Part shown: piece after piece, positions 3,614-37,888 of the stretch
How positions within the stretch are numbered: position 1 is the stretch's first letter
How the letters are laid out: every line of letters starts with the position of its first letter
From: Opitutia bacterium
GTDB taxonomy: Bacteria; Verrucomicrobiota; Verrucomicrobiia; Opitutales; Opitutaceae
Direction: 5' to 3'
Assembly (NCBI GenBank): GCA_003153035.1
Contig: PMBT01000052.1
Span: 45,974 to 85,223 of the forward strand
DNA length: 39,250 nucleotides
Program-made: the position numbers and the translations under genes
The notes under the pieces: model-generated
What the model was told of the DNA's origin: nothing
The model's database searches: none
Seen by the model: the letters and a program-made list of their open reading frames with translations, nothing else

Positions 3614-3873
3614 GCCGGAACGTTCTTGGCGTCGGTATAGCGAACCTCGCCGGCCTGCATGCGTTTCAGGTGGGCCAGAAAGCCGGAATCCGCCAGGAGT
3701 CCCTTCGTTTCCTTGCTGCGCAATTCGAACGGAAAGTCCTCCTCCGCTTCGATCTTGGCGAAAAACACATTGACGGCTTCGCCCGGGTTGAGGCCGAAAC
3801 GCGAGAGAATCTTCTCGGCACGTTTGAACCGTGCCGCCGGGATGTGGGTGCGCAGATAGGCTGTTTTTGCCAT
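3610..3873 (-). CDS. RelB/DinJ-family antitoxin
   Basis: An 87-residue protein beginning MAKTAYLRTHIPAARF. It shows the RelB/DinJ signature: a short basic N-terminal strand of ribbon-helix-helix type, helix KRAEKILSRFGLNPGEAVNVFF and the acidic FPFELR segment. It should neutralise the adjacent RelE/ParE-type toxin and repress its own promoter. The track extends the ORF to 3960, but the ATG at 3873 matches the family start and lies directly beside a tandem 10-bp repeat likely to be the operator. It overlaps the toxin start by four bases. Confidence 0.83.
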   Translation of the reverse strand: MAKTAYLRTHIPAARFKRAEKILSRFGLNPGEAVNVFFAKIEAEEDFPFELRSKETKGLLADSGFLAHLKRMQAGEVRYTDAKNVPA

Positions 3874-3874
3874 G

Positions 3875-3894
3875 TGCCCAAAATTGCCCAAAAT
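3875..3894. promoter_or_regulatory. tandem 10-mer, candidate antitoxin operator
   Basis: Two perfect, directly adjacent copies of TGCCCAAAAT lie immediately before the antitoxin ATG (read on the opposite strand, ATTTTGGGCA twice). Tandem sites with about one helical turn of spacing suit cooperative binding by ribbon-helix-helix dimers, as known for RelB-type autorepressors. The functional assignment is inference; the repeat is seen directly. Confidence 0.5.
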
Positions 3895-3990
3895 GGTCAT
3901 AGGGTCAAGGGCGCGTTTCCGTTGCGCAGGGCCGCCTCCGGACCCGGCGTCACCGGCCATCCGGCCTGGCCTAGGCGCGGAAACCCCGCA

Positions 3991-5271
3991 CTACTCTGCG
4001 CGCACGGGCACGCGGCCGTCTGCAAACTCGTTGGTGAGCCGCTGCCCAGGCTTCACCGCGGCGCGCCGCAGCACCGGCCGGTCGCGTTCGTCGTGGACGA
4101 TCACAAAACCGCGGTTGAGCACCGACGCCGGGCTGGCCGCCTGCAGGCGTTTCCACAGGGCCAAGAGCCGGTGCGACTCAAGGCTGATCCGCGGATCCGG
4201 CGAACAGACGCGGTAGCGTCCGGCCGCCATTGTGAGCCGCTGCCGCTGCGCCTGCACGCCGGCGCGAACCGCGGCAACCGCCCGGTTGGCGAGGTCGTCG
4301 AGCCGCAGCTGGCTTTGTTCAAGGAGCGCCTGCGGCGACAGCAGTCGCAACCGGCTGCGCGCGTGGTCCAGACGTTCGTCGGCCCGTTCCACGGCGAGCT
4401 CGAGCGCACGGTCCATGCCCTCGGCGGCGCGCGCCGCCCGCTCGGCAGCGGCGACGAAATTGCTGGAGATCAGCTCGGCGGCGGCACTCGGAGTCTCCGC
4501 CCGGACGTCGGCTGCAAAGTCGCAAAGCGTGAAATCGATTTCGTGGCCCACGGCCGAGATGATCGGCACGGGACAGGCCGCCACCGCGCGTACCAGCGGT
4601 TCCTCGTTGAAAGCCCACAAGTCCTCCAGGCTGCCGCCGCCGCGCCCGATCACGAGGAGGTCGAAGAGCCCGGGCGCCGCGGCCAGCTCCAGCATCTCGA
4701 TCATCCCGGCGGCGGCACCCTCACCCTGCACCTTGGCCGGCAGCACCACCAGCCGGCCGCGCCAGCCGCGCCGCTGCAGGATGCGGATGAAATCCTGCAC
4801 CGCCGCACCGGTCGGCGACGTGATGAAGCCCACCGTGGCCGGCATTGGCGGGATGGCCGTTTTCCGCGCGGCATCGAACAGCCCCTCGTCGGCCAGGCGC
4901 TGCTTCAACCGCTCAAATTCCTGCTGCAGCCGGCCCAGTCCGTCCTCCTGCAACCGGCGGACGACGAGCTGATACTGACCGCGCTGCTCATAAACACTGA
5001 TGCCCCCACTCGCCAGGACCTGTAATCCGTCACGCAGAACCACCGACTGCCGCAGAGCATCCCCCCGGAACAGGACGCAGGCCAGCTGCGCCCCGGAGTC
5101 TTTGAGCGAGAAGTAAACATGCCCGCTGGCCTGCGCCCGCAGGTTCGACACCTCGCCGCGCACCCAGCCCGGCCGGACGCCCTCCTCGAGCAGCACCTTC
5201 ACGCGCCGCGTAAACTCGCTGACGGTCTCCACCCGGCCGCCGTCGTCGCTCAACTCGAGTTCAGCCTTCAC
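3991..5271 (-). CDS. xseA: exodeoxyribonuclease VII large subunit
   Basis: A 426-residue XseA. The N-terminal OB-fold is visible (WVRGEVSNLRAQASGHVYFSLKD, in short segments), followed by the conserved catalytic-domain blocks VGFITSPTGAAVQDF, VIGRGGGSLEDLWAFNEE, PIISAVGHEIDFTLCDFAAD and RAETPSAAAEL, then the long coiled-coil region rich in Arg, Ala and Glu. With the small subunit XseB (not in this window) it degrades single-stranded DNA from both ends in the cytoplasm. It is slightly shorter than the E. coli protein, mainly at the C-terminal end. The start is GTG at 5271, inside the end of the upstream VTT-domain gene (11-base overlap), which implies coupled translation. Confidence 0.96.
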   Translation of the reverse strand: MKAELELSDDGGRVETVSEFTRRVKVLLEEGVRPGWVRGEVSNLRAQASGHVYFSLKDSGAQLACVLFRGDALRQSVVLRDGLQVLASGGISVYEQRGQYQLVVRRLQEDGLGRLQQEFERLKQRLADEGLFDAARKTAIPPMPATVGFITSPTGAAVQDFIRILQRRGWRGRLVVLPAKVQGEGAAAGMIEMLELAAAPGLFDLLVIGRGGGSLEDLWAFNEEPLVRAVAACPVPIISAVGHEIDFTLCDFAADVRAETPSAAAELISSNFVAAAERAARAAEGMDRALELAVERADERLDHARSRLRLLSPQALLEQSQLRLDDLANRAVAAVRAGVQAQRQRLTMAAGRYRVCSPDPRISLESHRLLALWKRLQAASPASVLNRGFVIVHDERDRPVLRRAAVKPGQRLTNEFADGRVPVRAE

Positions 5272-5932
5272 GTTTCGCCAACTTCCGCCGGATCAGATGC
5301 ACCGCCGCCACTGCCGCGACAATCACGCCAAGTCCCATCGCGGCCATTTTGAAATTGCCGTTCAATACCCCGCGGCCGAGGACGACGGCGCCAACCGCCC
5401 ACGGCAAAACGCAGAACCAGGAGACGAGCATGTAGAGCCGGAACGGAACATCAGCGAGGCCAAGGAGGTAACTCTGCAGGAAGAAAGGCGGGCCCGGCGT
5501 CAATCGCACGAGCAGCGCGATCGACAGCGCATTGCCGGCCGTTGCGCGCGGCACGGCGTAGCCGAAGCGCCTGAGCAGTCGCTCGAGCAACGGCCGGACG
5601 GCCTGGCGCGCCATCCAGTAAGTCAACGCGATATTGACGGCGATGGCCGCGAGGGTGGCCGCGAGCACCCCGCCGAGCGTCATCTGGGCGGCGAAGGCCT
5701 CGCCGGCCGGAATGGTAAACGCCATCAACGGCGCCCCGATCACCGGCAGCACCGCCATCGCGCCGAAGAACACCCACGGACCGGCGCTTCGGATCATCGC
5801 CATGCCTTGATCGATCAACGGTCTCACCTCAATTCCCCGCAACACCAGGACGCCAGCCACGAGCACGACCAGACCGAGTGCCCCCGCCCTGATGAGCAGC
5901 TTACGTTTTGCCGCGGGATCAACCTCCTGCAT
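5261..5932 (-). CDS. TVP38/TMEM64 (VTT-domain, DedA-superfamily) membrane protein
   Basis: A 223-residue integral membrane protein from ATG 5932. The track extends the frame to 6073, but the extra N-terminus looks non-coding. A first membrane segment (LGLVVLVAGVLVLRGI) is followed by the VTT core: the IPAGEAF re-entrant region, a run of small residues, RLTPGPPFFLQSYLLGL and a final pair of membrane helices. The family is linked to lipid or small-solute movement across the membrane; a specific substrate cannot be given. It overlaps xseA by 11 bases on the same strand. It is transcribed divergently from the O-antigen-ligase-like gene, with about 265 bases between them. Confidence 0.85.
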   Translation of the reverse strand: MQEVDPAAKRKLLIRAGALGLVVLVAGVLVLRGIEVRPLIDQGMAMIRSAGPWVFFGAMAVLPVIGAPLMAFTIPAGEAFAAQMTLGGVLAATLAAIAVNIALTYWMARQAVRPLLERLLRRFGYAVPRATAGNALSIALLVRLTPGPPFFLQSYLLGLADVPFRLYMLVSWFCVLPWAVGAVVLGRGVLNGNFKMAAMGLGVIVAAVAAVHLIRRKLAKREG

Positions 5933-6109
5933 CGCGGCAACATGCCTGCCGCCAGCCGCCAGCGTCAAGGCCGCAGACGCCGCGAAACCCGCCTTGCCGC
6001 CCAGCCTCCGGGCGGCTGTAATGGCGGGTGCCTCGCGAAGATGCTCGAGGAAAGCCTCGGGGCATTTGCGCAAGCCACTCTATGTCTCGCTTCATCTATC
6101 GTCAGTTCC

Positions 6110-6168
6110 GTGGCACGGGTCTCCAAACCCGTGTTCCCGTTCACCACGGGTCGGGAGACCCGTGCCAC
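6110..6168. repeat. 59-bp intergenic inverted repeat with two nested arms
   Basis: The outer arms GTGGCACGGGTCTCC (6110-6124) and GGAGACCCGTGCCAC (6154-6168) are perfectly complementary over 15 bases. An inner pair, ACCCGTG (6127-6133) and CACGGGT (6145-6151), is also perfect. Together they would form a two-stage hairpin. It lies in the divergent gap between the VTT-domain gene and the ligase-like gene, 30 bases before the latter. It looks like a REP-type palindromic element; no T-tract supports a terminator. Confidence 0.75.
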
Positions 6169-6197
6169 CTCCCGAAGCGAGCTTCGCCCCAACGCGA

Positions 6198-8666
6198 ATG
6201 ACCACCGCCCGTCCCGGCTCGCTGCTGACGAGGATCCCCGCTTTGCTCGGCCTGCTCGCCTCGGCCGTGTTTGCGGCGCTTTCGCTCTGTACCAACGCTG
6301 CCACCCGGTTCTACCAATGGCCGTGGTTCTTCTACTGGCAGGTGCTCCTGGTCGCACCCATCGCGATCCTCGTCGCCCGGCTCGTCGCTGGCGCGCGGTT
6401 GGCCCGCTTTGGTGGATGGCTGGACGGTGGTCTGGTGCTGCTGGCGGCGGCCAATGTTGTTGCGGCGATATTCAGTCCGTTCCGCCCGCAAAGCCTCAAC
6501 GCAGCGCTGGTCCCCGTCGCCGCAGTGAGCCTAGCCTATCTCGGACTGGACTGGATTCAACGCGACCCTGTGCGCCGGCAGGAGCGGACCGCGCAGTTTG
6601 CCCGGACAATTGGATTGCTGATGATGCTGTTCGTCGGTGTTAGTCTGGGCCTCTGGCTGTTTGCGCGGGTGCTGCCGGCCTGGGGGGCCGGCGCCTCGCT
6701 GCCGGCCGCGCTGGCGATCCGCAATGCGGACCCGCTCGGTCATTCCGTCTACACCGCGGGCTTTGCCATTCTCTGCGCACCCTGGCTCGGAGTTCTCGGA
6801 TTGACCGCAGCCCGGCGATGGCGCGGGCTCTGGTTCTTCGCCGCCGCCCTCGCATTGGTGCTGGTCCTGACCACGTCCAGCCGCGGTGGTGTGCTGGCCG
6901 TGGTCACCATGTTCGCCTGCGCCGCGGCAATCTGGCTGGCCGGGTCCTCGCGGGGCGGCGGCCGGCGCCTTCTGGTCGTGGCCGGTCTGCTGCTGGCCGC
7001 GGGGATGTTCGTTGGAGTCAATCCCCGCCTCCGCGGCCTGGTGATCCACGGAGGATGGAATGACCCGGCAGTCGAAAGCAACCGTCAGCGCGCGGCGATG
7101 CTTCAGGCCGGATGGCTGATGGGGCACGACCGCCCGTGGACTGGGTTTGGCCCGGGCACAGTCTCACTGGTCTACCCGCGGTACCGGGCACGGCTGTCGG
7201 GCGGGGTGGATGATGTCCTGCAATTGCACAACACCCCGCTGCAACTCTGGGCGGAACTCGGGGCGGCCGGAGTGCTTGCCGGGCTGCTGCTGCTCGTCGG
7301 CGCGGTCTGTCTGGCGCGCGACGTCTGGAAGCAAGCCGCGGACCCGGTAAATCGCCTACGCACGCGAGCGGTGTTCATCGCTTTTGTCGGCTACGCCGTA
7401 ATGTCCCTGTTCGATTACCAACTCGATATCCCCCTGTTCGCCGCCACCACGATGGCCCTGCTGGTGGTATTGCGGGTAAGTTCCTCGGTGCCCGCCGGCC
7501 CATCCGTCCCTTCAGCGATGCCCTCCGCCGCCATGCGTCTGTCGGGCGCGCTGCTGCTGTTGGCGCTGGGCGTCATGCTGTGGCCGACCCTGCCCAACCT
7601 GCGCGCCCGTCAATTGTTCTCCCAAGCCGCCGACGCCCGTGAAGCCGGGGACAACGCCGCGTTTGTCGCCGGCGCCGAGCAGGCCGCCAGCGTGGCCCCG
7701 TGGGAGCCGTTTTACCTGACTCAGCTGGCGGCATATTATGGCGACGAATATCTGCAGGCCGGCACGGTGACCGAACGGACTCGCGCTGGCGACGAATGCC
7801 GTACGCGGCTGCGGCGTGCTCTCCAGATCGATCCCGATCAAGAATACTGCCATTTCAATCTCGCGTGGCTGTTGCTGCCGGGTGATCCGGCTGAAGCTGA
7901 AAAGCACTTTCGCGCCGCCGCGCGTCTCTCGCCGTATCGGGGAGGATTGTACCTTGGCATTGGTCTCAGCCTGCTCGCCCGAAACGACGACTCCGCCGTC
8001 TCCATGTTCGCCTTGGAATGGCTGAATGATCCGCAGGCGTTCACCTCGCCCCGCTGGGACGCACCGCCGTTGTCGGCCTTGCGGGGCAAGGTGGCAGATG
8101 CCCTTCAGCGGCTGGCCGCGCGCGCGCTGGAGCAAGCGGCGCTGGCCCCCGCCAGCCGGGATCAAGTGCGCTATGTGACCGCTCTCGCCGACTGGTGGCT
8201 CGGCCGCTCTACCGACACCACGGCACTGGTTCGATATAGTGCCCCCGAGCAGAGACACTTTTTCCAGAGCCTGGAGGCGATGGCAAAGCGCTCATTCACT
8301 CCTACGGAATCCAGGCTGCCGGAGCCGTGGAGACCGCTCTATGTCGCCTGGCGCGATGGCACGCTTCCCGCCGGTCTCGCCGTAGACCAGCCTGCTGCGA
8401 TTGACGCTTTCCGCCGGCGCCTTGCCAGCGTGCAGGATTCGTTTGTTCGACTGCTGACCGGCCCACCCGGGCCGGAAGCCGCCCTGATTCAGTACGGACG
8501 GAACGACCGGCCGGGCCACAGCGTGCTTCAGCGGAACCAGGACGGGTTTCTTTTGCGTGACCTGTATGTTTATCCTGAGAGTCTCCTGGTAAGAAAATAC
8601 GCCTCGTTTCTTTTCCCACCCAAAGGCTATCTTCCTGACTGGTTGCTCCGCCAATCCTCCGATTAG
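6198..8666 (+). CDS. O-antigen ligase/polymerase family (Wzy_C) membrane protein with TPR-like C-terminal region
   Basis: An 822-residue protein from ATG 6198; the track's 5892 start runs through the intergenic hairpin and is not credible. About ten to twelve membrane helices fill residues 10-460. The Wzy_C-type periplasmic loop is recognisable: TSSRGG near residue 223, then GHDRPWTGFGPGTVSLVYP near 308 and LQLHNTPLQLWAELG. From about 470 the protein is soluble with TPR-like helical pairs (SQAADAREAGDNAAF, PDQEYCHFNLAWLLLPGD). Such proteins transfer or polymerise undecaprenyl-linked glycans in the periplasm: Wzy, WaaL or PglL-type O-oligosaccharyltransferases; sequence alone does not separate these. 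It begins the + strand group that continues with the priming transferase. The long C-terminal extension is larger than in classic Wzy or WaaL. Confidence 0.85.
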   Translation: MTTARPGSLLTRIPALLGLLASAVFAALSLCTNAATRFYQWPWFFYWQVLLVAPIAILVARLVAGARLARFGGWLDGGLVLLAAANVVAAIFSPFRPQSLNAALVPVAAVSLAYLGLDWIQRDPVRRQERTAQFARTIGLLMMLFVGVSLGLWLFARVLPAWGAGASLPAALAIRNADPLGHSVYTAGFAILCAPWLGVLGLTAARRWRGLWFFAAALALVLVLTTSSRGGVLAVVTMFACAAAIWLAGSSRGGGRRLLVVAGLLLAAGMFVGVNPRLRGLVIHGGWNDPAVESNRQRAAMLQAGWLMGHDRPWTGFGPGTVSLVYPRYRARLSGGVDDVLQLHNTPLQLWAELGAAGVLAGLLLLVGAVCLARDVWKQAADPVNRLRTRAVFIAFVGYAVMSLFDYQLDIPLFAATTMALLVVLRVSSSVPAGPSVPSAMPSAAMRLSGALLLLALGVMLWPTLPNLRARQLFSQAADAREAGDNAAFVAGAEQAASVAPWEPFYLTQLAAYYGDEYLQAGTVTERTRAGDECRTRLRRALQIDPDQEYCHFNLAWLLLPGDPAEAEKHFRAAARLSPYRGGLYLGIGLSLLARNDDSAVSMFALEWLNDPQAFTSPRWDAPPLSALRGKVADALQRLAARALEQAALAPASRDQVRYVTALADWWLGRSTDTTALVRYSAPEQRHFFQSLEAMAKRSFTPTESRLPEPWRPLYVAWRDGTLPAGLAVDQPAAIDAFRRRLASVQDSFVRLLTGPPGPEAALIQYGRNDRPGHSVLQRNQDGFLLRDLYVYPESLLVRKYASFLFPPKGYLPDWLLRQSSD

Positions 8667-10384: not shown

Positions 10385-11758
10385 ATGACCGCCCCCCTCG
10401 GTGAGGAAGCACCGGTGTCCGACCGCGGCCGGTTGCTCGGCGCGACCTTCGTGATCGGGACGTTTGCCATTTGCTTGGTCCGGCTAGTGGGCTTTGTGCA
10501 GGCCAACGCGGTGGACCTTCTCTATGAAGACCAGTGGACATTCCTGCAGCCGCTGTTCGAGGGCCGGGGTCCGTGGAGCTGTTTCTTTTACCAACATGGG
10601 CCGCACAGCTTGGGCCTGGGAGGACTGGTCGACTGGTATCTCTTCAACGCCACCGGCTGGGATGTGCGCGCGGAGGCGTGGGCCGCGGTGGTGGTGCTTG
10701 CTTTCGCCACGATTGTGGCGATCGCCCTCGCGGCCCGATTGCGCGGGCGCCTTTCCTGGAGCGACGCCGCGTTTCCCCTGCTCCTGCTGGGTCCGATTCA
10801 CTGGGAGACCATGGTCTTCACGCCGAACCTGGCCCATTCGATCCTCCCGCTTTTGTTCACGTTGCTGCTCGCCTACGCCTGGGGGCCGGCCGGTCCGTTG
10901 ACCCGGGTCGTCGTAGTCGGGGTTTTCGGCACACTGACTCTCTTCACCGGCTACGGCTCCTGCGGCATGCCGGTTTCCGTCGGCTTGGCGGTGCTGCTAT
11001 GGCTGCGACCGGGGAAGGATGAGACGCCGGTGGATCGCCGCCAGTTGGTGTTGATTCTGCTCATGCTCGGGGTCGCGGCGGTGGTTTTCGCCCACGGGTA
11101 TCACTGGGATCGGGGAACCCCCTGGCGTTTTCCGCTGCCGAACTGGTGGGACTACCCACGCTTCTGCGCGCTGATGTTTACGAGTCTGGTCGGATGGCGG
11201 GCGCTTTCAGCCGCGTCAGTGACGGCCGGATTCGTGATGCTGGGTTTCGTGGTGGCCGCATTCCTCGTCGCAGCGAAGGCAATCTGGCGGTGCCACGCCT
11301 CTCCCCGAACGCGGGCCGTGTGGATTCTGACCGGAACCTCGCTCCTGTATGCGGCGTTGACCGCAATCGGGCGCCTGCCTGTGAACCTGCAGGCCGCGTT
11401 CATGTGGCGATACATCACACTCATGATGCCCGCGGTTTGTGGACTCGCCCTCGCGATCGAGGGCTGGGCAATTTCCCGAGGAATCAGATTCCGCCTTGGA
11501 TTCGCCCTGGGCTGGCTGTTGCTGGCCGGCGTGGTCTGGAGTAATTTCCGGCCGGAAGCCTACGCGGCGACCGTGGCGCGCGGAAAAAACCTTTGGATCG
11601 CGAGCTACCTGCGGACGCGCGATCTGAACGTCGCCAACAAGGCGGCGGACTCTTCGGTGTTCTCCCCGGCCCCGGCTTCACCGGTCATTGCCGGACGCCT
11701 TCACTGGCTGGAAAAGCAGCACTTGTCGTTCTTCCGGATCCCGTCGGACAAGCAGTGA
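10385..11758 (+). CDS. multi-pass membrane protein, GT-C-like, function unknown
   Basis: A 457-residue protein with about ten membrane helices spread over its length and a short soluble C-terminus ending in HWLEKQHLSFFRIPSDKQ. After the first helix comes a loop with LLYEDQWTFLQPLF (E48, D49). An acidic pair at this position is characteristic of polyprenol-phosphate-sugar-dependent GT-C glycosyltransferases, but the rest does not let me assign a family. It follows the priming transferase by 72 bases on the same strand and is probably part of the same transcription unit. Other possibilities are a lipid-linked-glycan modifying enzyme or a polymerase. Start ATG 10385 is the first in frame close to the hydrophobic N-terminus. 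Confidence 0.7.
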   Translation: MTAPLGEEAPVSDRGRLLGATFVIGTFAICLVRLVGFVQANAVDLLYEDQWTFLQPLFEGRGPWSCFFYQHGPHSLGLGGLVDWYLFNATGWDVRAEAWAAVVVLAFATIVAIALAARLRGRLSWSDAAFPLLLLGPIHWETMVFTPNLAHSILPLLFTLLLAYAWGPAGPLTRVVVVGVFGTLTLFTGYGSCGMPVSVGLAVLLWLRPGKDETPVDRRQLVLILLMLGVAAVVFAHGYHWDRGTPWRFPLPNWWDYPRFCALMFTSLVGWRALSAASVTAGFVMLGFVVAAFLVAAKAIWRCHASPRTRAVWILTGTSLLYAALTAIGRLPVNLQAAFMWRYITLMMPAVCGLALAIEGWAISRGIRFRLGFALGWLLLAGVVWSNFRPEAYAATVARGKNLWIASYLRTRDLNVANKAADSSVFSPAPASPVIAGRLHWLEKQHLSFFRIPSDKQ

Positions 11759-19317: not shown

Positions 19318-19536
19318 ATGCCCGTTGCCACCCTTCGCCTCACGACCGCCGAGAAACGCCGCTTCAACGCGGAAGCCCGGCGCCGCGGTCTTTCACTCTC
19401 CGAGTACCTTCGCCGGGCCGGTCACGCCGAGGCCACCCGGGTCGATTGGAGGACCTTTTTTGCCGCCACGCCTCCGGTAGCCCTGCCGCCTCGCGCCCCC
19501 ACCGACCTCTCCACTCGTGAAGGATTCGGAGGTTAG
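19318..19536 (+). CDS. ribbon-helix-helix-like antitoxin (VapB-type partner of PIN toxin)
   Basis: A 72-residue protein, MPVATLRLTTAEKRRFNAEA onwards. A short N-terminal strand (ATLRLT) is followed by two helices, the second containing GLSLSEYLRRAGHAE, which fits the ribbon-helix-helix DNA-binding fold. The C-terminal half, rich in Pro and Thr, is probably the toxin-binding tail. The track merges it into a long ORF from 18766; the ATG at 19318 gives the family-like start. The next gene, a PIN-domain protein, overlaps it by 20 bases, the usual type II arrangement. Confidence 0.72.
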   Translation: MPVATLRLTTAEKRRFNAEARRRGLSLSEYLRRAGHAEATRVDWRTFFAATPPVALPPRAPTDLSTREGFGG

Positions 19537-19951
19537 GTATCTGATCGATGCCGGCCCGCTCGTCGGCGCCTTTTGGCCCGCCGATCAGTGGCACGCCTGG
19601 AGCCGCAAGACCCTTTCTTCGGTCGGCGGACCCGTCTACACGACCGAGGCCGTTTTCGCCGAGGCTGCATATCATTTGAAAGCGCCGACCAACGCGCTGC
19701 TCCAATTGCTCGCCGCACTGGAGACCGGGTTGGTGCGCTTGACCCCCGTGGCGCCCGTTGATGCCGTCCGCGCCGCGGAAATCATCACCCGCTATGCCCC
19801 CCGCTCCGATTGGGGCGATGCTTCGCTCGTCATTCTCTCCGAGCGTTTTCCTCGCGCCCGCCTGATCACGGTCGACATCCGTGATTTCACCATCTACCGC
19901 CGGCGCAATGGCAGCCCGGTGCCTTGCATTGCGCCGCCAAGTCCTATTTGA
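19517..19951 (+). CDS. PIN-domain ribonuclease toxin (VapC-like)
   Basis: A 144-residue PIN-domain protein. The acidic residues that build the PIN metal site are visible: D11 in VRYLIDAGPLVG, a Glu in TTEAVFAEAAYHL, an Asp in DWGDASLVILSE and the late ITVDIRDF strand. VapC-type toxins cleave tRNA or rRNA when the antitoxin is lost. The start is GTG at 19517, inside the antitoxin gene, so translation is coupled. The pair sits between two oppositely oriented polysaccharide units and ends 33 bases before the DPM1-like glycosyltransferase. Target unknown. Confidence 0.85.
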   Translation: MKDSEVRYLIDAGPLVGAFWPADQWHAWSRKTLSSVGGPVYTTEAVFAEAAYHLKAPTNALLQLLAALETGLVRLTPVAPVDAVRAAEIITRYAPRSDWGDASLVILSERFPRARLITVDIRDFTIYRRRNGSPVPCIAPPSPI

Positions 19952-22493: not shown

Positions 22494-24599
22494 TCAGGTC
22501 GTGGAGACTTTTGCCTCTGCCTGCCTGCGAAGGAGCCCAAAGGCGAGAAGGTAAAGAACCAGGGCCATGAGTGCCGTCGAGCGCAGGCCACCAAGCATCG
22601 AGTAGTATTCCAGGCACCCGCCAAGCACCGCACCGAGCAGGTTGGCGCCGAGCGACGCCGCTCCGTCTGTCGCGCGCGCCAGCAGCATGGGAACGATGAT
22701 GCCGGCGAGGCCCACGGGCAGTCCGGTGATCAATCCGGCAAGAACTCCTTTTGCGAGAAGCGGCAGAGTCTGCAGCCAGCCGACCGGGAAAAAGCTGAGC
22801 AGGGCCACCGCGATGAACAGGACCACAAAACCCGGGAATGGATTGGTCCACCGGGTTCTCATTACGAGGGCGTTTGCCAACAACACCATGAGCAGAATGC
22901 CACCAAAGATGGCGGCATTGACGATCCAGGTTGAACCGAAAAGCAGGGACATGCTGGTCACGCCTCGCGTCTCAATCAGCATGAAGGCGGCGCCCATGAG
23001 GAAGATCGGCCAATCGAAAGCGGTGCCGCTCTTCCCAATTCCGAAAACCGGGCGGACGGTCACGGCAGCAAGGATCAGGATAAAGCAGAGCATGGTGGCA
23101 TAGCCCCACGGGACTACTCCGGGACGAATGTAGAGGAAGGGCCAATCATCGCTCGTCGTTATGACAACGTCCATTTTCGACTCCGGCATCACGCGATGGC
23201 TCCGCCCGAGAACCGCGAAATCGATCTGCGCTCCGTCGCGGGGAACAATGAAGGTCGCCGTGGCATGCAACGGGGAAAGAACCGTATAGGGTTCGCGGCC
23301 CGTTGCCTTGGTGATGGTCCAGTAGATTCGGTCAAAAAACCACTGTCCAGCCACGCAGGAGAAGGCGAGCGAGAGGTGTCCGCCTTGGGCGACCCGGTTC
23401 CAGGCGGCGCGGATGCCTTCTTCGGTGTAAACGTAATTGTCCAGCCGCAGGGTGGCCATGGCGGATACCATTGCGTGCGAGTCGAGGAGACCGTAGCAGA
23501 CGACGTCGTACTTCGCTTCGCGATTCTTGTCAAAAAAGGCCCGGGCGTCATCCACGACTGGAATCACCCGTGGGTCGCTGTAAGGCTTTTCGGGATGACG
23601 GGCCCGACCGATATCGATGATCATCCCATCAATATCCACGCTGGTCACTTGCGAGTAGCCATTGCGAAGGGCGGCCTGCACATCGTTGCCGGTCCCGGCT
23701 CCGACGATGAGCGCGGTTCCCCGGTGTCGGTTTGCCTGGAACGGAAGATCGTAAAGGTTTCGGAATTGTCCGAGAAAAAGCCGCTCTTCTTCCGTCAGTT
23801 TGGGCTCAGCGAGCCGAAGGTCCGAAAGATCGTGAAGGTACTGATGGAAATCGCGATTTACCTCGAGTTTCTGGAAGAGCAGCGAGGGGTCGTTTGACAC
23901 GACAATGCGATTGTAGGGCGAGAAAACCGCGCCCTGAACGGAATAGAAACCGAGCGCCACGACCAGAACCGCGAGCAGTACGGAGGTTCGCGTGCGGACG
24001 AGAGCGACGAACGGGGCGCAAGCCAGGGCCAGCCAAACTGCCGGGCCCGCGTTGCACCAGGCGACCGCCGTGAAAAGCAGCACGCCCAGGAGGGAGCCCG
24101 TGAGGTCGGCGGAGTAGGCTTTCAACACGGGCAGTCGTGAAAAGAGATAGCCCAATGGCGCGCCGCAGCAGACAAAGATGAAAATAATAAGGCAATGGAG
24201 ACTCAGGAAAACCGCCAGGTGGGTGGCGAAGACGGTGAAATTGGCGGGGATGACCTCACCGCCCCACAGCATGATGCTGTTATCAGGGAAGGTCATTCTT
24301 ACGAGATTCAGCTTCTCCGCAAAAGCCATGGGGATGGCCAGCACGAGCAGCGCGGGAAGCGCCAGATGAACCAGGCCCGGCAAACGCTTCCCAAGGGCCA
24401 CACCGACGCCCATGCCGAAAAATACACCGATGAGGACCACGTTGTTGAAATAGGCGAAGATCCGCACCTGCGACGACGTCCAGCGAATGATCGCCAGCTC
24501 AAGGGTCAAAATGCCGAACGTCACTAACCCAATCATCCATGGCGTTGAAACGCGCCGATCTGCCCAACGCGCGTCTGAAAGCACCTTCGGGAAGCGCAT
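22494..24599 (-). CDS. membrane-embedded spermidine-synthase-like (SAM-fold) protein
   Basis: About 701 residues from ATG 24599; the track's 24635 start is TTG. It has an N-terminal block of six to seven membrane helices, a central cytoplasmic-type Rossmann domain and a C-terminal block of about seven helices. The central domain resembles spermidine synthases and SAM methyltransferases: ALIVGAGTGNDVQAALRNG (about 297-315), VTSVDIDGMIIDIGR, DPRVIPVVDDARAFF and KYDVVCYGLLDSHA. The catalytic D-x-x-DP motif of aminopropyltransferases is replaced by YGLLDSH, so ordinary polyamine synthesis is unlikely. The type is common in environmental bacteria and its function is not established. It lies between the two glycan groups, convergent with the GT-C gene and divergent from the second ligase-like gene. 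Confidence 0.85.
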   Translation of the reverse strand: MRFPKVLSDARWADRRVSTPWMIGLVTFGILTLELAIIRWTSSQVRIFAYFNNVVLIGVFFGMGVGVALGKRLPGLVHLALPALLVLAIPMAFAEKLNLVRMTFPDNSIMLWGGEVIPANFTVFATHLAVFLSLHCLIIFIFVCCGAPLGYLFSRLPVLKAYSADLTGSLLGVLLFTAVAWCNAGPAVWLALACAPFVALVRTRTSVLLAVLVVALGFYSVQGAVFSPYNRIVVSNDPSLLFQKLEVNRDFHQYLHDLSDLRLAEPKLTEEERLFLGQFRNLYDLPFQANRHRGTALIVGAGTGNDVQAALRNGYSQVTSVDIDGMIIDIGRARHPEKPYSDPRVIPVVDDARAFFDKNREAKYDVVCYGLLDSHAMVSAMATLRLDNYVYTEEGIRAAWNRVAQGGHLSLAFSCVAGQWFFDRIYWTITKATGREPYTVLSPLHATATFIVPRDGAQIDFAVLGRSHRVMPESKMDVVITTSDDWPFLYIRPGVVPWGYATMLCFILILAAVTVRPVFGIGKSGTAFDWPIFLMGAAFMLIETRGVTSMSLLFGSTWIVNAAIFGGILLMVLLANALVMRTRWTNPFPGFVVLFIAVALLSFFPVGWLQTLPLLAKGVLAGLITGLPVGLAGIIVPMLLARATDGAASLGANLLGAVLGGCLEYYSMLGGLRSTALMALVLYLLAFGLLRRQAEAKVSTT

Positions 24600-24947
24600 G
24601 CCTGGAAGGCCATCGGCTCTTGGAGCCTGCGGCAAGCGGTAAGCATCATTTTGTAGAATAACGAGTTCACGACCGGTCGTTGTGTATCATATTCCAGAGG
24701 AATCTGTTGCCTCATTTGAGGTCCGTACGTGATCCACCGCTTTCATCGCTTTCTCACATCCCCTATGCCGGAGTGAACTTCGACTATCGATTGAATCCTC
24801 GGTGTCGTCGCAACTCAGTCGAGACCGACCTTGGCGCTCCTGCAGGATGCCCCGGCACGGCGCTCCTCTTTATAACCAGCGGAGGCACGGTCGTATTCTG
24901 CGAAGTCCAGCAATTGAACTATTGCGGCGCGGTTCTCGCGCGCCAAC
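24600..24947. other. divergent intergenic region, no gene seen
   Basis: About 350 bases lie between the spermidine-synthase-like gene (-) and the second ligase-like gene (+). The part from 24640 to 24800 is noticeably richer in A+T than the flanking genes, as expected of a region holding two divergent promoters. The 106-residue ORF 24680-25000 overlaps the start of the ligase-like gene and has no protein-like features. No promoter is called. Confidence 0.45.
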
Positions 24948-26639
24948 ATGAGGCGGCTTCAACCCCGCCTTTTCCCGCGCAATTTGGACCCGATGGTTAA
25001 CCAAAGTGTCTCTGCAGATGATGGAGAAGCCGCCATCCCGCCGGCTGTCTGGGCAGTCGCCGTGGCGGCGGCGGTTCTGCCATTTCTCGCAGATCTCCCC
25101 ATCGATTATGACCGGCTCGCCCCGGTCGCCGTGCTGCCGGCGCTCTGGCTTGGCCGGAAATATCGGCCCGCCGACCAGGGGAACCCCCAAGCGCGGAAGA
25201 TTGACCGGGTGCTAATTACCGCCGCGGCGGGGGTGGCGATTCTATCGGCAATTCTCGGTCCTCATCCGGTTCCGTCGCTTGTCGGCTCCGCGTCCTGGGC
25301 TTGGATTCTGGCCGGCGCTCTTCTGGCCCGGCGACTGGCCGCCAACACCCGGGCCGTCCGGTTGATTCTGGCCGGCATCACTATGGGGGCCACGCTCGGC
25401 TGTCTGGTCGTGTGGGCGCAATGGGTGGAGGGGACCCCGATCAACGCGTTTCCTCACTACGGTCATGGGCGGCTGTTCGGACTCCATATGATGGTGGGAA
25501 CGATGACTGCGCTGGCCTGGGTGGTTTTGACCCCCACCCACAGCGTTGCGCGCCTGCTGGGGTATGTGGTCGCGGTGATCAATTGCGGCGGGATGCTGTG
25601 GTCAGGCGGGCGCGCCCCGCTGGTCGGCGTGGCGGCGGGGCTTGCTCTCTGGTTTTGGCGCAGCGAGCCGGCCGAGCGGCGCGTTCTGATTCGCGGTGTG
25701 CCCCTCGTGTTTCTCGGCGGAATACTGCTCTCGTGCTTGCGGTGGTCGCCCGAGCCCTATCTCGGGTGGTGGAACGCGCTCGCCCGCACGAATGCAGCGA
25801 CTTCCGTCGACGCGCTTTCTTCCACCCGCCTGAGTTTCTGGCAGGTCACCTGGCACGAGATCCTGAAGGCGCCGTGGATTGGACATGGGGCCGACTCGTA
25901 CCGTTTCATTGTTCCCAAACAGGACGGCAACCAACCCCACAACTGGGTCCTGCAGTTCCTGCTCGATCTTGGCGTGCTGGGCGCCGTGCCTCTCGGTTGG
26001 CTGCTGCTTCGCCAGGCCCACGGAGGACTGGCTGGCAACCGTGCCGACGGGGACGCAGGAGCTTTTGCCGCCCGGCGGGCAATTGCCGGAGGATTGGTTG
26101 CATGCCTGGCCGCAGGATTGCTTGACGGTGTTTTTTATCATGCGGTCCTTTTGCTGCCGGCTGCCTTGCTTGCCGGCCTGGTGGGAAGCACCGGCGCAGA
26201 ATCGACCGGCAATCCTGGCCGGACTTTCCGGCCAGGATGGTTGTGCCTCGTTGCCTCGGGCGCATTGTTGGGATTGCACAGTTATCTGGTCGCCTGCATG
26301 GCGTACCCGCCCGCTCCGGCCGGACCCGATGCACCGGCTGCGCGTCTGCTGCGAGTTTTCCCCAGCACCACCTTTGCCCTGCATGGCTGGCTCAACGCCT
26401 GGCGAACCACCCATCCCGACGTTGTTCTCGAATGGTCACAATGGGCCCAGCGAGAGAGCGACAATCCGTCGGAGTTTCATGTCTATGCGGCCGTGCTCTA
26501 TTCCGAGAGGCGCGACTTTGCCTCGGCCCGCCGCGAGGTGGAGGCCGCCATGCGCACAGCGCACTGGAATTCACTCCCTAAACTGAGGGCGCTGCTGGCG
26601 GCCATCCGCGCCGCTGAGGCGCAATCCAGCTTACCGTAG
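24948..26639 (+). CDS. O-antigen ligase/polymerase family (Wzy_C-like) membrane protein, second copy
   Basis: A 563-residue protein with about ten to twelve membrane helices. The Wzy_C pattern is visible as LWSGGRAPLVGVAAGLAL near residue 218, then STRLSFWQVTWHEILKAPWIGHGADSYRF near 300-315 and QPHNWVLQFLLDLGVLGAVP, which parallel the RG, G-x-G and H-N-x-x-L motifs of WaaL, Wzy and PglL proteins. A short helical C-terminal tail (VYAAVLYSERRDFASARREV) is TPR-like. It would transfer or polymerise lipid-linked glycan in the periplasm. ATG 24948 is used; ATG 24993 is an equally possible start. Its relation to the first ligase-like protein is distant. Two such enzymes in one region suggest separate roles, for example polymerase and ligase or protein O-glycosylation. 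Confidence 0.82.
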   Translation: MRRLQPRLFPRNLDPMVNQSVSADDGEAAIPPAVWAVAVAAAVLPFLADLPIDYDRLAPVAVLPALWLGRKYRPADQGNPQARKIDRVLITAAAGVAILSAILGPHPVPSLVGSASWAWILAGALLARRLAANTRAVRLILAGITMGATLGCLVVWAQWVEGTPINAFPHYGHGRLFGLHMMVGTMTALAWVVLTPTHSVARLLGYVVAVINCGGMLWSGGRAPLVGVAAGLALWFWRSEPAERRVLIRGVPLVFLGGILLSCLRWSPEPYLGWWNALARTNAATSVDALSSTRLSFWQVTWHEILKAPWIGHGADSYRFIVPKQDGNQPHNWVLQFLLDLGVLGAVPLGWLLLRQAHGGLAGNRADGDAGAFAARRAIAGGLVACLAAGLLDGVFYHAVLLLPAALLAGLVGSTGAESTGNPGRTFRPGWLCLVASGALLGLHSYLVACMAYPPAPAGPDAPAARLLRVFPSTTFALHGWLNAWRTTHPDVVLEWSQWAQRESDNPSEFHVYAAVLYSERRDFASARREVEAAMRTAHWNSLPKLRALLAAIRAAEAQSSLP

Positions 26640-28671: not shown

Positions 28672-29031
28672 TCAATTGGTAAATGAGATGTTCGGTTTGT
28701 TCGCAACGTTGCTGCCGGTCGCAACGATCGAAGCGTCCGTCTGGTTGTAGGAGGCCGGATAGGTCTCACCCGCGACCGTAGCGATGGTCTTGATGTACGC
28801 AGTAGGACCAACTAAGTCACCCCAAGCGGCAACGGAGACACCATTCTCCAGGAAATATTGCTGCGCGGCGGCAGAGAGCTGGCGAAGATTGTTGATGATG
28901 GTCTTCTCCTGCGAGGCGGCGCGAACCTTCTGGAATGCGGGAATGGCCATCGCCGCGAGCAGACCGATGATGACGACGACAATCATGATTTCGACAAGGG
29001 TAAAGCCCTTGTTTGAACGATTAGTTTTCAT
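28672..29031 (-). CDS. type IV prepilin-like protein (N-terminal methylation motif)
   Basis: A 119-residue protein from ATG 29031 (the track's 182-residue version runs upstream into non-coding DNA). The leader MKTNRSNKG ends with Gly before the cleavage site, and the mature protein starts FTLVEIMIVVVIIGLLAAMA with Glu at position 5, the exact prepilin pattern recognised by a PilD-type peptidase. A short alpha-helix (QEKTIINNLRQLSAAAQQYF) follows, then a small globular part ending in PNISFTN. It could be a major pilin or a type II secretion pseudopilin; the small size and own terminator suit an abundant subunit. No pilus assembly genes are nearby. Two N-x-S/T sequons, NQT and NIS, lie in the C-terminal part. 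Flanking glycosyltransferase genes raise the possibility of glycosylation. Confidence 0.9.
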   Translation of the reverse strand: MKTNRSNKGFTLVEIMIVVVIIGLLAAMAIPAFQKVRAASQEKTIINNLRQLSAAAQQYFLENGVSVAAWGDLVGPTAYIKTIATVAGETYPASYNQTDASIVATGSNVANKPNISFTN

Positions 29032-29080
29032 GGGATGATACGATTTGGATCTATTATTGGTTGATGATATGAATTTATGC

Positions 29081-29094
29081 TTCCCACTAGGGAA
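29081..29094. promoter_or_regulatory. small palindrome upstream of prepilin, possible operator
   Basis: TTCCCACTAGGGAA has perfect 5-bp arms around a 4-base centre. It lies about 50 bases before the prepilin start, overlapping the only weak promoter-like pair. Its placement fits a regulator site, but a palindrome this short can arise by chance. Confidence 0.25.
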
Positions 29095-29321
29095 ACAACC
29101 CTGGAGAGAACTGTACTTGCAGATGAACGGCAAGAAGGAATGCTCGCCAAGTCCATCAATAAACTGTGAAAACCGCGGCTGGTTGCAAGCTGACAATCCG
29201 ATTCCGGGTCGAATACCCACGGTTGGCCGTCCGGATCACCTGGTGAAAATCCGGTGAATCGTGTCGTGACAGGTGTCTGGTCGCAAACAAGTTAGGCCGC
29301 GTATTCAATCTTCCATTGCAC

Positions 29322-35734: not shown

Positions 35735-36649
35735 ATGAGCTTCCGCATCGGAGTCGATGGCGGTGGGACCAAGACCGAGTGCATTTTGCTCGACGGGCTC
35801 GGCGCCGTCGCGGCGCGCCATACGGCCCCGGGCTGTAATCCCAACCTGGTCGGTCCGGAACGCGCGCGGGCAGTTTTCCTCGCAGCGCTTCGGACGATGC
35901 TGGCGAACGCCGGCGTCGGAGTCTCCCCGCCCGAGATCGCGGCGACCCTGCTCTGCATGGCAGGAAACTCCTCGTTTTGGGGGGAGACTGCCACCACCAT
36001 GACCGGTTTCGGAAAGGTGACCACCGCGTCAGATTCCCTGCCCGTGCTCGAACTCGCCACCAGCGGGGCGCCCGGCCTGGTCCTCCACGCCGGCACCGGG
36101 TCGTTCGTCACGGCCCGCGCACCCGATGGGTCGGTTCATTATGCCGGCGGACTTGGCTGGCGCTTCGGCGATGCGGGCGGCGGGTACGATCTCGGCCGCC
36201 GCGGCATCGCCCGGGCGCTGCTCGAACTCCAAGGCTGGGCGGAGCGCACCGCCCTCGCCGAGGCCCTCTGCCAGCACACGGGGGCGGCGGACTACGCCGC
36301 CAATTCGCGGATCCTCTACTCCTCGGCGGACCCCGGCCCGAGCATTGTCGCGTTCGCTTCCCGTGTGGCCGACCTGGCCGGCGAGGGCTGCCGTCCGGCG
36401 CAACAAGTCATTGCCCAATCCCTTTCCGAACTCGCGGCGTTGGTGAACGCGGTGCTGCCGCGCCTGTTCCCGCTCGCCACTGCGGACGCGAGGGTTCCTT
36501 GCGGGGTGAGCGGCGCCCTCCTGAACCGTCCGCCCTGCCTTTACACGTTGCACGCCCTCGCGGCCACGCACGCCTGGCCCTTCCGGTTGCAGGCCGTCAC
36601 CGAGCCGCCGATCGAGGGCGTGCGCCGGTTGCTGCTGAAGATGAGCTGA
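35735..36649 (+). CDS. BadF/BadG/BcrA-family sugar kinase (N-acetylglucosamine kinase-like)
   Basis: A 304-residue ASKHA-fold kinase from ATG 35735 (the track start at 35693 is upstream). Phosphate-1 motif FRIGVDGGGTKTECILLD opens the protein, HAGTGSFVTAR is the phosphate-2/adenosine region and GWRFGDAGGGYDLGRRGI is the family-typical loop of N-acetylglucosamine kinases. It should phosphorylate an amino sugar with ATP in the cytoplasm. It sits just after the SIS-domain gene and 69 bases before an unrecognised kinase-like gene. Sugar specificity is inferred from family only. Its antisense strand is open for a long stretch, which is compositional. Confidence 0.88.
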   Translation: MSFRIGVDGGGTKTECILLDGLGAVAARHTAPGCNPNLVGPERARAVFLAALRTMLANAGVGVSPPEIAATLLCMAGNSSFWGETATTMTGFGKVTTASDSLPVLELATSGAPGLVLHAGTGSFVTARAPDGSVHYAGGLGWRFGDAGGGYDLGRRGIARALLELQGWAERTALAEALCQHTGAADYAANSRILYSSADPGPSIVAFASRVADLAGEGCRPAQQVIAQSLSELAALVNAVLPRLFPLATADARVPCGVSGALLNRPPCLYTLHALAATHAWPFRLQAVTEPPIEGVRRLLLKMS

Positions 36650-36718
36650 GATCCCCGGGACTGCGTTGGCCGCGAAGTGCGGGTTTGCCTGGGCGCCGCG
36701 CATCACTACCCTCCCCTC

Positions 36719-37804
36719 ATGGCCGCCGACGCGGAGAACATCGCCCCGACACAGAAGAAGCCGAGCTACCCGGTCATCGACGAGCTCCGCTCCTACCTGC
36801 GTCGCTACCGGCGCGATCGCGATCTGCCCGTTACCTACGAACGGCTCCGCAACTTTCAGGAGACGGCGCCACTCATCGACGCCGACGGCCGCGCCACGCT
36901 CTGGGAGACCGTGGCTTATCACGCAGAGGAGATGCGCGTGCTCAATGAGGACCTCAAGCGCATCTACGCCCTCCTCAAGGTCGACGGCGACTTCTCGGTC
37001 ATGACCCACCTGTACATCGACCGCATCGACTTCTGCTCCTTCGGCAACTCCCAGCCGTTCCGCATCCGGATTGTCAACGCCTACAACGACAACCCGGACT
37101 ATTTCTACATCAAGAAGGCCGACGCCTCCCGCGTGTACGGACTGGAGCTCGAACACCTGCTCTCGCCCAACCGCCTCAGCTTTCTCACCTCCGGCCGCAT
37201 GCTGGTCGAGGAGCACATCCCCGGCATCCCCGGCGACGTTTTCACCGAGCGCTGGCTGCACCACAGCGACTTCAAACCCATCCGCGTGGCCAAGGAGCTC
37301 GTGAAGTTCAACGAGCGCTGCTTCGTCCGGCTGCTGGGCGACATGCGCGCCTACAATTTCGTTGTGATCGTCATGCCCGACTTCGAGGACGCGCAGATCC
37401 GCATCCGGGCGATGGATTTCGATCAGCAATCGTACAACGGCCGAAAGAACTTCTACCTGCCGCAGTTCTTCAAGGAGAACCGGCCGCTGGCCCTCTACTG
37501 CCTCCAGCACCTTCGCTACGAGACCTCGCTGCAATACCAGCGCGAGGAACAGACGCTCATGCTCCAGCGCAGCGAGATCGCGGCCCACCGCCTCGGCTAC
37601 CTGCTGCAGATCATGGCCCGGGACCGCATCGCGCCGGATGAGAAAGTCCATCAGCTCCGCGAGAGCCTGGCCGAGCACTTCCACTCCGATCATTACCTGC
37701 GCTGCCAGACGATGGGCGAGCTCGTGCGTGAAAACCTCGAGACCCTCCGGCGGAACATCAGCCGTCCCATCGCGCCGCCGGCCGGCCAGGAGGAACTCGC
37801 CTGA
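36719..37804 (+). CDS. unrecognised protein with protein-kinase/APH-like fold motifs
   Basis: A 361-residue soluble protein from ATG 36719. I recognise no named family. Its order of motifs resembles the protein-kinase/aminoglycoside-phosphotransferase superfold: FYIKKADAS (K132/K133, beta-3 Lys), YGLELEHLL (E143/E145, helix-C Glu), hinge-like MLVEEHIPGI (161-170), catalytic loop LLGDMRAYNFVV (D208 and N213, the D-x4-N spacing of kinases) and IRAMDFDQQSY (D233/D235, DFG-like). A helical N-terminal domain (1-90) with charged residues and a C-terminal helical part flank the core. No glycine-rich loop is evident. It follows the sugar kinase on the same strand by 69 bases. It may be a small-molecule or protein kinase, or a pseudokinase; function not assigned. 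Confidence 0.8.
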   Translation: MAADAENIAPTQKKPSYPVIDELRSYLRRYRRDRDLPVTYERLRNFQETAPLIDADGRATLWETVAYHAEEMRVLNEDLKRIYALLKVDGDFSVMTHLYIDRIDFCSFGNSQPFRIRIVNAYNDNPDYFYIKKADASRVYGLELEHLLSPNRLSFLTSGRMLVEEHIPGIPGDVFTERWLHHSDFKPIRVAKELVKFNERCFVRLLGDMRAYNFVVIVMPDFEDAQIRIRAMDFDQQSYNGRKNFYLPQFFKENRPLALYCLQHLRYETSLQYQREEQTLMLQRSEIAAHRLGYLLQIMARDRIAPDEKVHQLRESLAEHFHSDHYLRCQTMGELVRENLETLRRNISRPIAPPAGQEELA

Positions 37805-37888
37805 CCCGGCCCGCACCTTTCACGGTCTCGACCGTTGCTGCGATCAACTGCCTGGCTCCAGTTCACCGACCAATCTTTTGTCAACTAA

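Follow-up and report, generated by a model that had tools for sequence, protein, structure and literature searches.

The minus strand of the window, by which we mean the whole 39,250-nucleotide stretch of Opitutaceae DNA that was analysed, contains an open reading frame that begins with an ATG at 24599 and ends with a stop at 22494, giving a protein of 701 aa (or of 713 aa, if an in-frame TTG upstream at 24635 is taken as an alternative start). Its relatives share 56-65% identity with it in the matched stretch and confirm that it is a real coding gene. A reading of the sequence alone had placed a spermidine-synthase-like (SpdSyn-like) domain between two membrane bundles of about seven helices each at these coordinates, and this layout is borne out: the AF2 model, made from a five-sequence input, has 7 membrane helices on each side of the Rossmann domain (Table 1). 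The mean pLDDT of the full-length model is 60.7, with the C-terminal half modelled poorly, versus 73.2 (pTM 0.77) for the domain modelled alone. Pfam Spermine_synth (PF01564) matches residues 283-376 only, at 27.5 bits against a cut-off of 22.9. The spermidine synthases of the PDB match the 701-aa protein at 1.6e-8 in the sequence search and the isolated domain model at 2.9e-11 by fold (Foldseek), and the nearest solved structures are aminopropyltransferases on both measures. Methyltransf_25 and Methyltransf_12 match weakly, all below cut-off. The speE equivalogs TIGR00417 and PRK00811 gave no match to the query at E<=1, and the relatives reach 31-41 bits with these models, whose cut-offs are about 250-260. 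A viral or phage origin of the gene was set aside, as no relative was found in the viral contigs and there was no PHROG match.

Table 1. Features of the gene and the encoded protein, in window coordinates
Feature	Position	Strand	Description
Gene	22494..24599	-	701-aa protein: 7 TM + spermidine-synthase-fold Rossmann domain + 7 TM
N-terminal membrane half, TM1-7	23937..24545	-	Residues 19-221; AF2 helices, hydropathy, positive-inside counts (28 relatives)
SAM-type loop GAGTGND	23682..23702	-	Residues 300-306; T303 at acidic position of GxG(D/E)G; D306 invariant
YGLLDSHAMVSAMATLRLDNYVYT	23424..23495	-	Residues 369-392; in place of DxxD catalytic loop
Rossmann domain (spermidine-synthase fold)	23124..23924	-	Residues 226-492; PF01564, Foldseek to SpdSyn; predicted to lie outside the cytoplasm
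DDWPFLY	23130..23150	-	Residues 484-490, entry to TM8; D484, P487 invariant
C-terminal membrane half, TM8-14	22509..23111	-	Residues 497-697; AF2, positive-inside counts, hydropathy

The gene is set in a glycan cluster encoding O-antigen ligases, GT2 enzymes, PMT_2 mannosyltransferase-like proteins, a flippase and a DegT aminotransferase. Two of the cluster's proteins belong to the Wzy_C (O-antigen-ligase) family, at 5892-8663 (+), where the protein has a long C-terminal extension, and at 24948-26636 (+). A prepilin-like protein near the gene studied, at 28675-29220 (-), has an N_methyl motif (GFTLVEIMIVVVIIG), and its gene adjoins that of a PMT_2 glycosyltransferase. The cluster also contains a PIN-domain protein at 19517-19948 (+) with a small ORF just upstream in an overlapping frame, and this protein may act as the toxin in a VapBC-type pair. 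The long ORFs at 3670-5022 (+), 10385-11755 (+) and 36032-37816 (-) had no Pfam match at E<=1e-4.

Conservation was assessed in a family set of 28 full-length proteins, the query included, from Verrucomicrobiota, Desulfobacterota, Actinomycetota (Nonomuraea, Streptomyces) and Sphingomonadales (Novosphingobium). One relative, from a Desulfobacterales MAG (L005/L112), groups inside the Opitutaceae clade, apart from the other Desulfobacterota, and its C-terminal portion is found at the end of a different contig; the grouping suggests either a recent transfer or a misassigned (misbinned) contig.

The SAM-type loop, as originally noticed, is followed by the acidic strand VDID (residues 321-324), and a SAM-type nucleotide site is supported. 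Residue 303, which in spermidine synthases is the Asp or Glu of GxG(D/E)G that serves decarboxylated SAM, is T, S, G, A or N across the family. In YGLLDSH (residues 369-375), G370 occupies the place of the first Asp of the aminopropyltransferase DxxD, and the second Asp is kept as D373; residue 370 is Gly, Ala or Ser, and never Asp, in 28/28 family members. The absence of the usual catalytic motif had been read from the window copy, and the alignment indicates that the catalytic Asp has been lost throughout the family, a strictly conserved change rather than a quirk of that copy. G300, G302, G304, D306, D324, D351, R353, D365, D373, S374, R385, D484 and P487 are invariant in all 28 proteins, and 19 of the 37 invariant positions fall in the Rossmann domain, at catalytic-type positions. 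Because D306, D373, S374 and R385 are invariant while position 370 is never Asp, the family alignment suggests an active site that is functional though not the usual one, and a different site that is so strictly conserved would therefore mean that the domain is something other than a decayed synthase.

The membrane orientation was predicted by a positive-inside count, with the TM segments fixed on the query and the family alignment and the Rossmann domain left out of the K+R count. The even loops, on the N-terminal side, have a mean K+R of 14.3 versus 3.5 in the odd loops, the direction being the same in 28/28 proteins, and the same orientation is returned by the N half alone in 27/28 and by the C half alone in 28/28. 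Because this bias is shared by all 28 proteins and by both halves, it argues strongly that both termini are cytoplasmic and that the Rossmann domain, entered by TM7 and exited by TM8, lies outside the cytoplasm. As a control, the count was repeated for PilD in nine of the host genomes and gave the correct, opposite orientation, with the SAM-using domain in the cytoplasm. TM8 is strongly hydrophobic and among the most hydrophobic segments in 28/28 proteins. The weak point of the orientation is TM7, which has a hydropathy of 2.22 in the query, is marginal in several relatives and reaches Kyte-Doolittle 1.6 in 17/28, the best soluble stretch reaching 1.5. A domain facing outward, as predicted, would fit a membrane-linked or exported substrate, which upholds that half of the original proposal of a membrane-bound or exported glycan or lipid; the glycan half did not survive the comparison of neighbourhoods described below.

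Membrane 'spermidine synthases' are present in every host genome checked. Apart from the window's family, the same genomes encode class B (seven TMs, the domain and seven TMs, a layout identical to that of the 701-aa protein), class C (13 TMs, then the domain) and class D (7 TMs, then the domain). In all three, the number of TMs ahead of the domain is odd, and the positive-inside count puts it outside in 11/11, 8/8 and 1/1 proteins, respectively. The scanned representatives of the three classes all exceed the cut-off of MFS_SpdSyn (NCBIfam NF037959), and MFS_1 matches one MFS_SpdSyn relative weakly (8.3e-5). Loci of this MFS/spermidine-synthase class with the domain after 7 or 13 TMs are L127:264-2531 (+), L010, L122, L123, L125, L130, L134 and L141. 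Classes B and C share the six-TM repeats that form their membrane halves, with the order exchanged, the profile of the B N-half matching the second repeat of C at 2.5e-15 and that of the B C-half matching the first repeat of C at 9e-17, and on these profiles the two classes look like circular permutations of two six-TM repeats. Internal duplication is clear in classes B (1.3e-11) and C (6e-35), in contrast to the weak signal between the two membrane halves of the window's family (E 0.004 local, 0.0003 global), for which a duplication was dropped as an explanation.

The Rossmann profile of the window's family matches class B at 7.8e-29 and its membrane halves match weakly, at 7e-5 to class B and 3e-4 to class C; judged by this profile similarity, the family is a divergent relative of the membrane SpdSyn classes. 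Its layout, in which an odd TM leads into the SpdSyn domain, and its predicted orientation are those of the MFS_SpdSyn (NF037959) and PRK03612-type proteins, and its membrane halves may likewise be MFS-like six-TM repeats. However, it falls below the NF037959 threshold of 40 bits (no match of the query at E<=1, and none of two relatives at E<=0.01), the profile similarity of the membrane halves is weak, and where class B has DPxTxxLNRFYT the window's family has DSHxxxSxxSxxRLDNYVYT. To our knowledge, the NF037959 MFS_SpdSyn proteins and the PRK03612-type membrane aminopropyltransferases are annotated, but none has been characterised.

AdoMet decarboxylase is the source of decarboxylated SAM. 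This enzyme (SpeD, PF02675) was undetected in 18 of the 23 host genomes carrying the family, which include the window's own genome (G000, 86% complete) and a complete genome (G169, which encodes two members of the family). Four host genomes yielded a canonical soluble SpeE; all four have AdoMet decarboxylase, and the two genes adjoin in three of them. Because the decarboxylase was undetected in so many hosts, aminopropyl transfer is unlikely. Of the two cofactors put forward by the sequence-only reading, SAM would be the likelier one, and decarboxylated SAM is unlikely. We know of no SAM pool in the bacterial periplasm, and a search of the open-access literature for such a pool returned nothing. 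In comparison with soluble SpeE (1uir, 3anx, 6o64), the window's family has the same fold, nucleotide-binding strand, DAR motif and second Asp of DxxD, whereas it lacks the catalytic Asp and the acid in the glycine loop, is membrane-embedded and is usually without an AdoMet decarboxylase partner. PA4774/SpeE2, which is associated with surface spermidine, was set aside as a 349-aa thermospermine synthase outside the window's family.

A connection with glycans had been proposed, and a survey of the neighbourhoods of relatives had been set beforehand as the test to refute it. The survey found settings unrelated to surface glycans. No conserved partner was present among the neighbours of about 28 relatives, no neighbour family recurred beyond close relatives, glycan families (GT, Wzy) were rare among 135 neighbours, and gyrA adjoined the gene in two of the closest relatives. 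The glycan cluster is thus a local setting, and a glycan-modifying role is not supported. Two further roles were considered and rejected. On the one hand, methylation of LPMOs was discarded, as LPMOs of PF03067 were absent in 23/23 hosts. On the other hand, a stand-in for the pilin N-methylation of PilD would be needless, since the prepilin peptidase/methylase has a normal PilD N-terminal domain in 21/23 hosts.

Within the open-access literature on bacterial membrane spermidine-synthase fusions (subscription journals were mostly outside the scope), only the paper on the fungal NHMT (AN4663) was relevant. NHMT is an ER-resident membrane enzyme composed of 7 TM and a SpdSyn-like domain, with no acid at the GxG(D/E)G position; its substrates are secreted LPMOs, in which it methylates the N-terminal histidine, and the paper reports its 7TM region from filamentous fungi only (PMC10349129). 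Both proteins have seven TMs followed by a SpdSyn-like Rossmann domain from which the GxG(D/E)G acid is lost, and they would probably also agree in sidedness, the ER side being topologically equivalent to the bacterial outside. They differ in that the likeness covers the first seven TMs only, the 701-aa protein having seven more after the domain, and in that NHMT acts on N-terminal-His LPMOs, a substrate for which these hosts have no PF03067 candidate. NHMT was compared by description only, which holds for its specific segment 389-394 and its 7TM sequence. By analogy, the 701-aa protein would be a bacterial analogue of NHMT in its working, and membership in NHMT is not claimed.

The reading that we prefer, to which we give slightly less than an even chance, is that the protein is an outward-facing, membrane-embedded SAM-dependent transferase, probably a methyltransferase and not an aminopropyltransferase. 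The Rossmann domain would be held on the periplasmic side between TM7 and TM8 of two distantly MFS-like six-helix bundles, SAM would serve as the cofactor, and the product would be a methylated exported or membrane-bound substrate. The bundle, in which the buried polar residues E34, R39, Y50, N53, Y162, E543 and N653 are conserved, may bring SAM or the substrate to the domain. Against this reading stand the lack of a known periplasmic SAM pool, the statistical nature of the orientation, with TM7 weak in several relatives and AF2 weak in the C half, the closest folds, which are spermidine synthases and not methyltransferases, and the surveys of neighbours, PF03067 and PilD, which pointed to no partner gene or substrate. 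That bacteria carry out SAM transfer periplasmically in several SpdSyn-like architectures, with MFS-like bundles carrying SAM or a precursor across, is a wider proposal that we hold to be doubtful.

The abundance of SAM in the cytoplasm and the marginal hydrophobicity of TM7 in several relatives would both be accommodated if the domain were cytoplasmic and the protein an ordinary SAM-dependent methyltransferase or other transferase whose lipid-linked or membrane substrate is found at the inner leaflet, with TM7 not spanning and TM8 re-entrant. We regard this as rather unlikely, in view of the hydrophobicity of TM8 throughout the family, the single orientation that the two membrane halves yield independently, and the outside placement also obtained for the sister classes, in which 7 or 13 TMs precede the domain. 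The conserved polar residues in the bundles, together with the MFS-like repeats of the MFS_SpdSyn relatives and the single weak MFS_1 match, could alternatively point to a transporter or sensor, in which a degenerate, non-catalytic SpdSyn domain binds periplasmic polyamine, SAM or SAH and gates the MFS-like bundle. This is improbable, as the share of invariant positions at the catalytic-type sites of the Rossmann domain goes beyond the needs of binding alone; the pure sensor allowed for by the sequence-only reading is less likely because these residues are invariant. Finally, an aminopropyltransferase whose active site has been rewired, and which makes or attaches polyamine-like groups at the membrane, would agree with the nearest folds and sequences, which are aminopropyltransferases, and with the retention of D373. 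The family-wide loss of both the first Asp and the GxG(D/E)G acid, and the scarcity of AdoMet decarboxylase among the hosts, make it quite improbable.

If the predicted orientation of the window's family is true, SAM would be needed outside the cytoplasm, with a supply for which there is no known bacterial route; for an enzyme of this kind NHMT is a eukaryotic precedent, on the topologically equivalent side (ER). Membrane 'spermidine synthases' are annotated as polyamine enzymes. With the orientation as predicted, the window's family, and probably its larger relatives, would be outward-facing transferases and not polyamine synthases.
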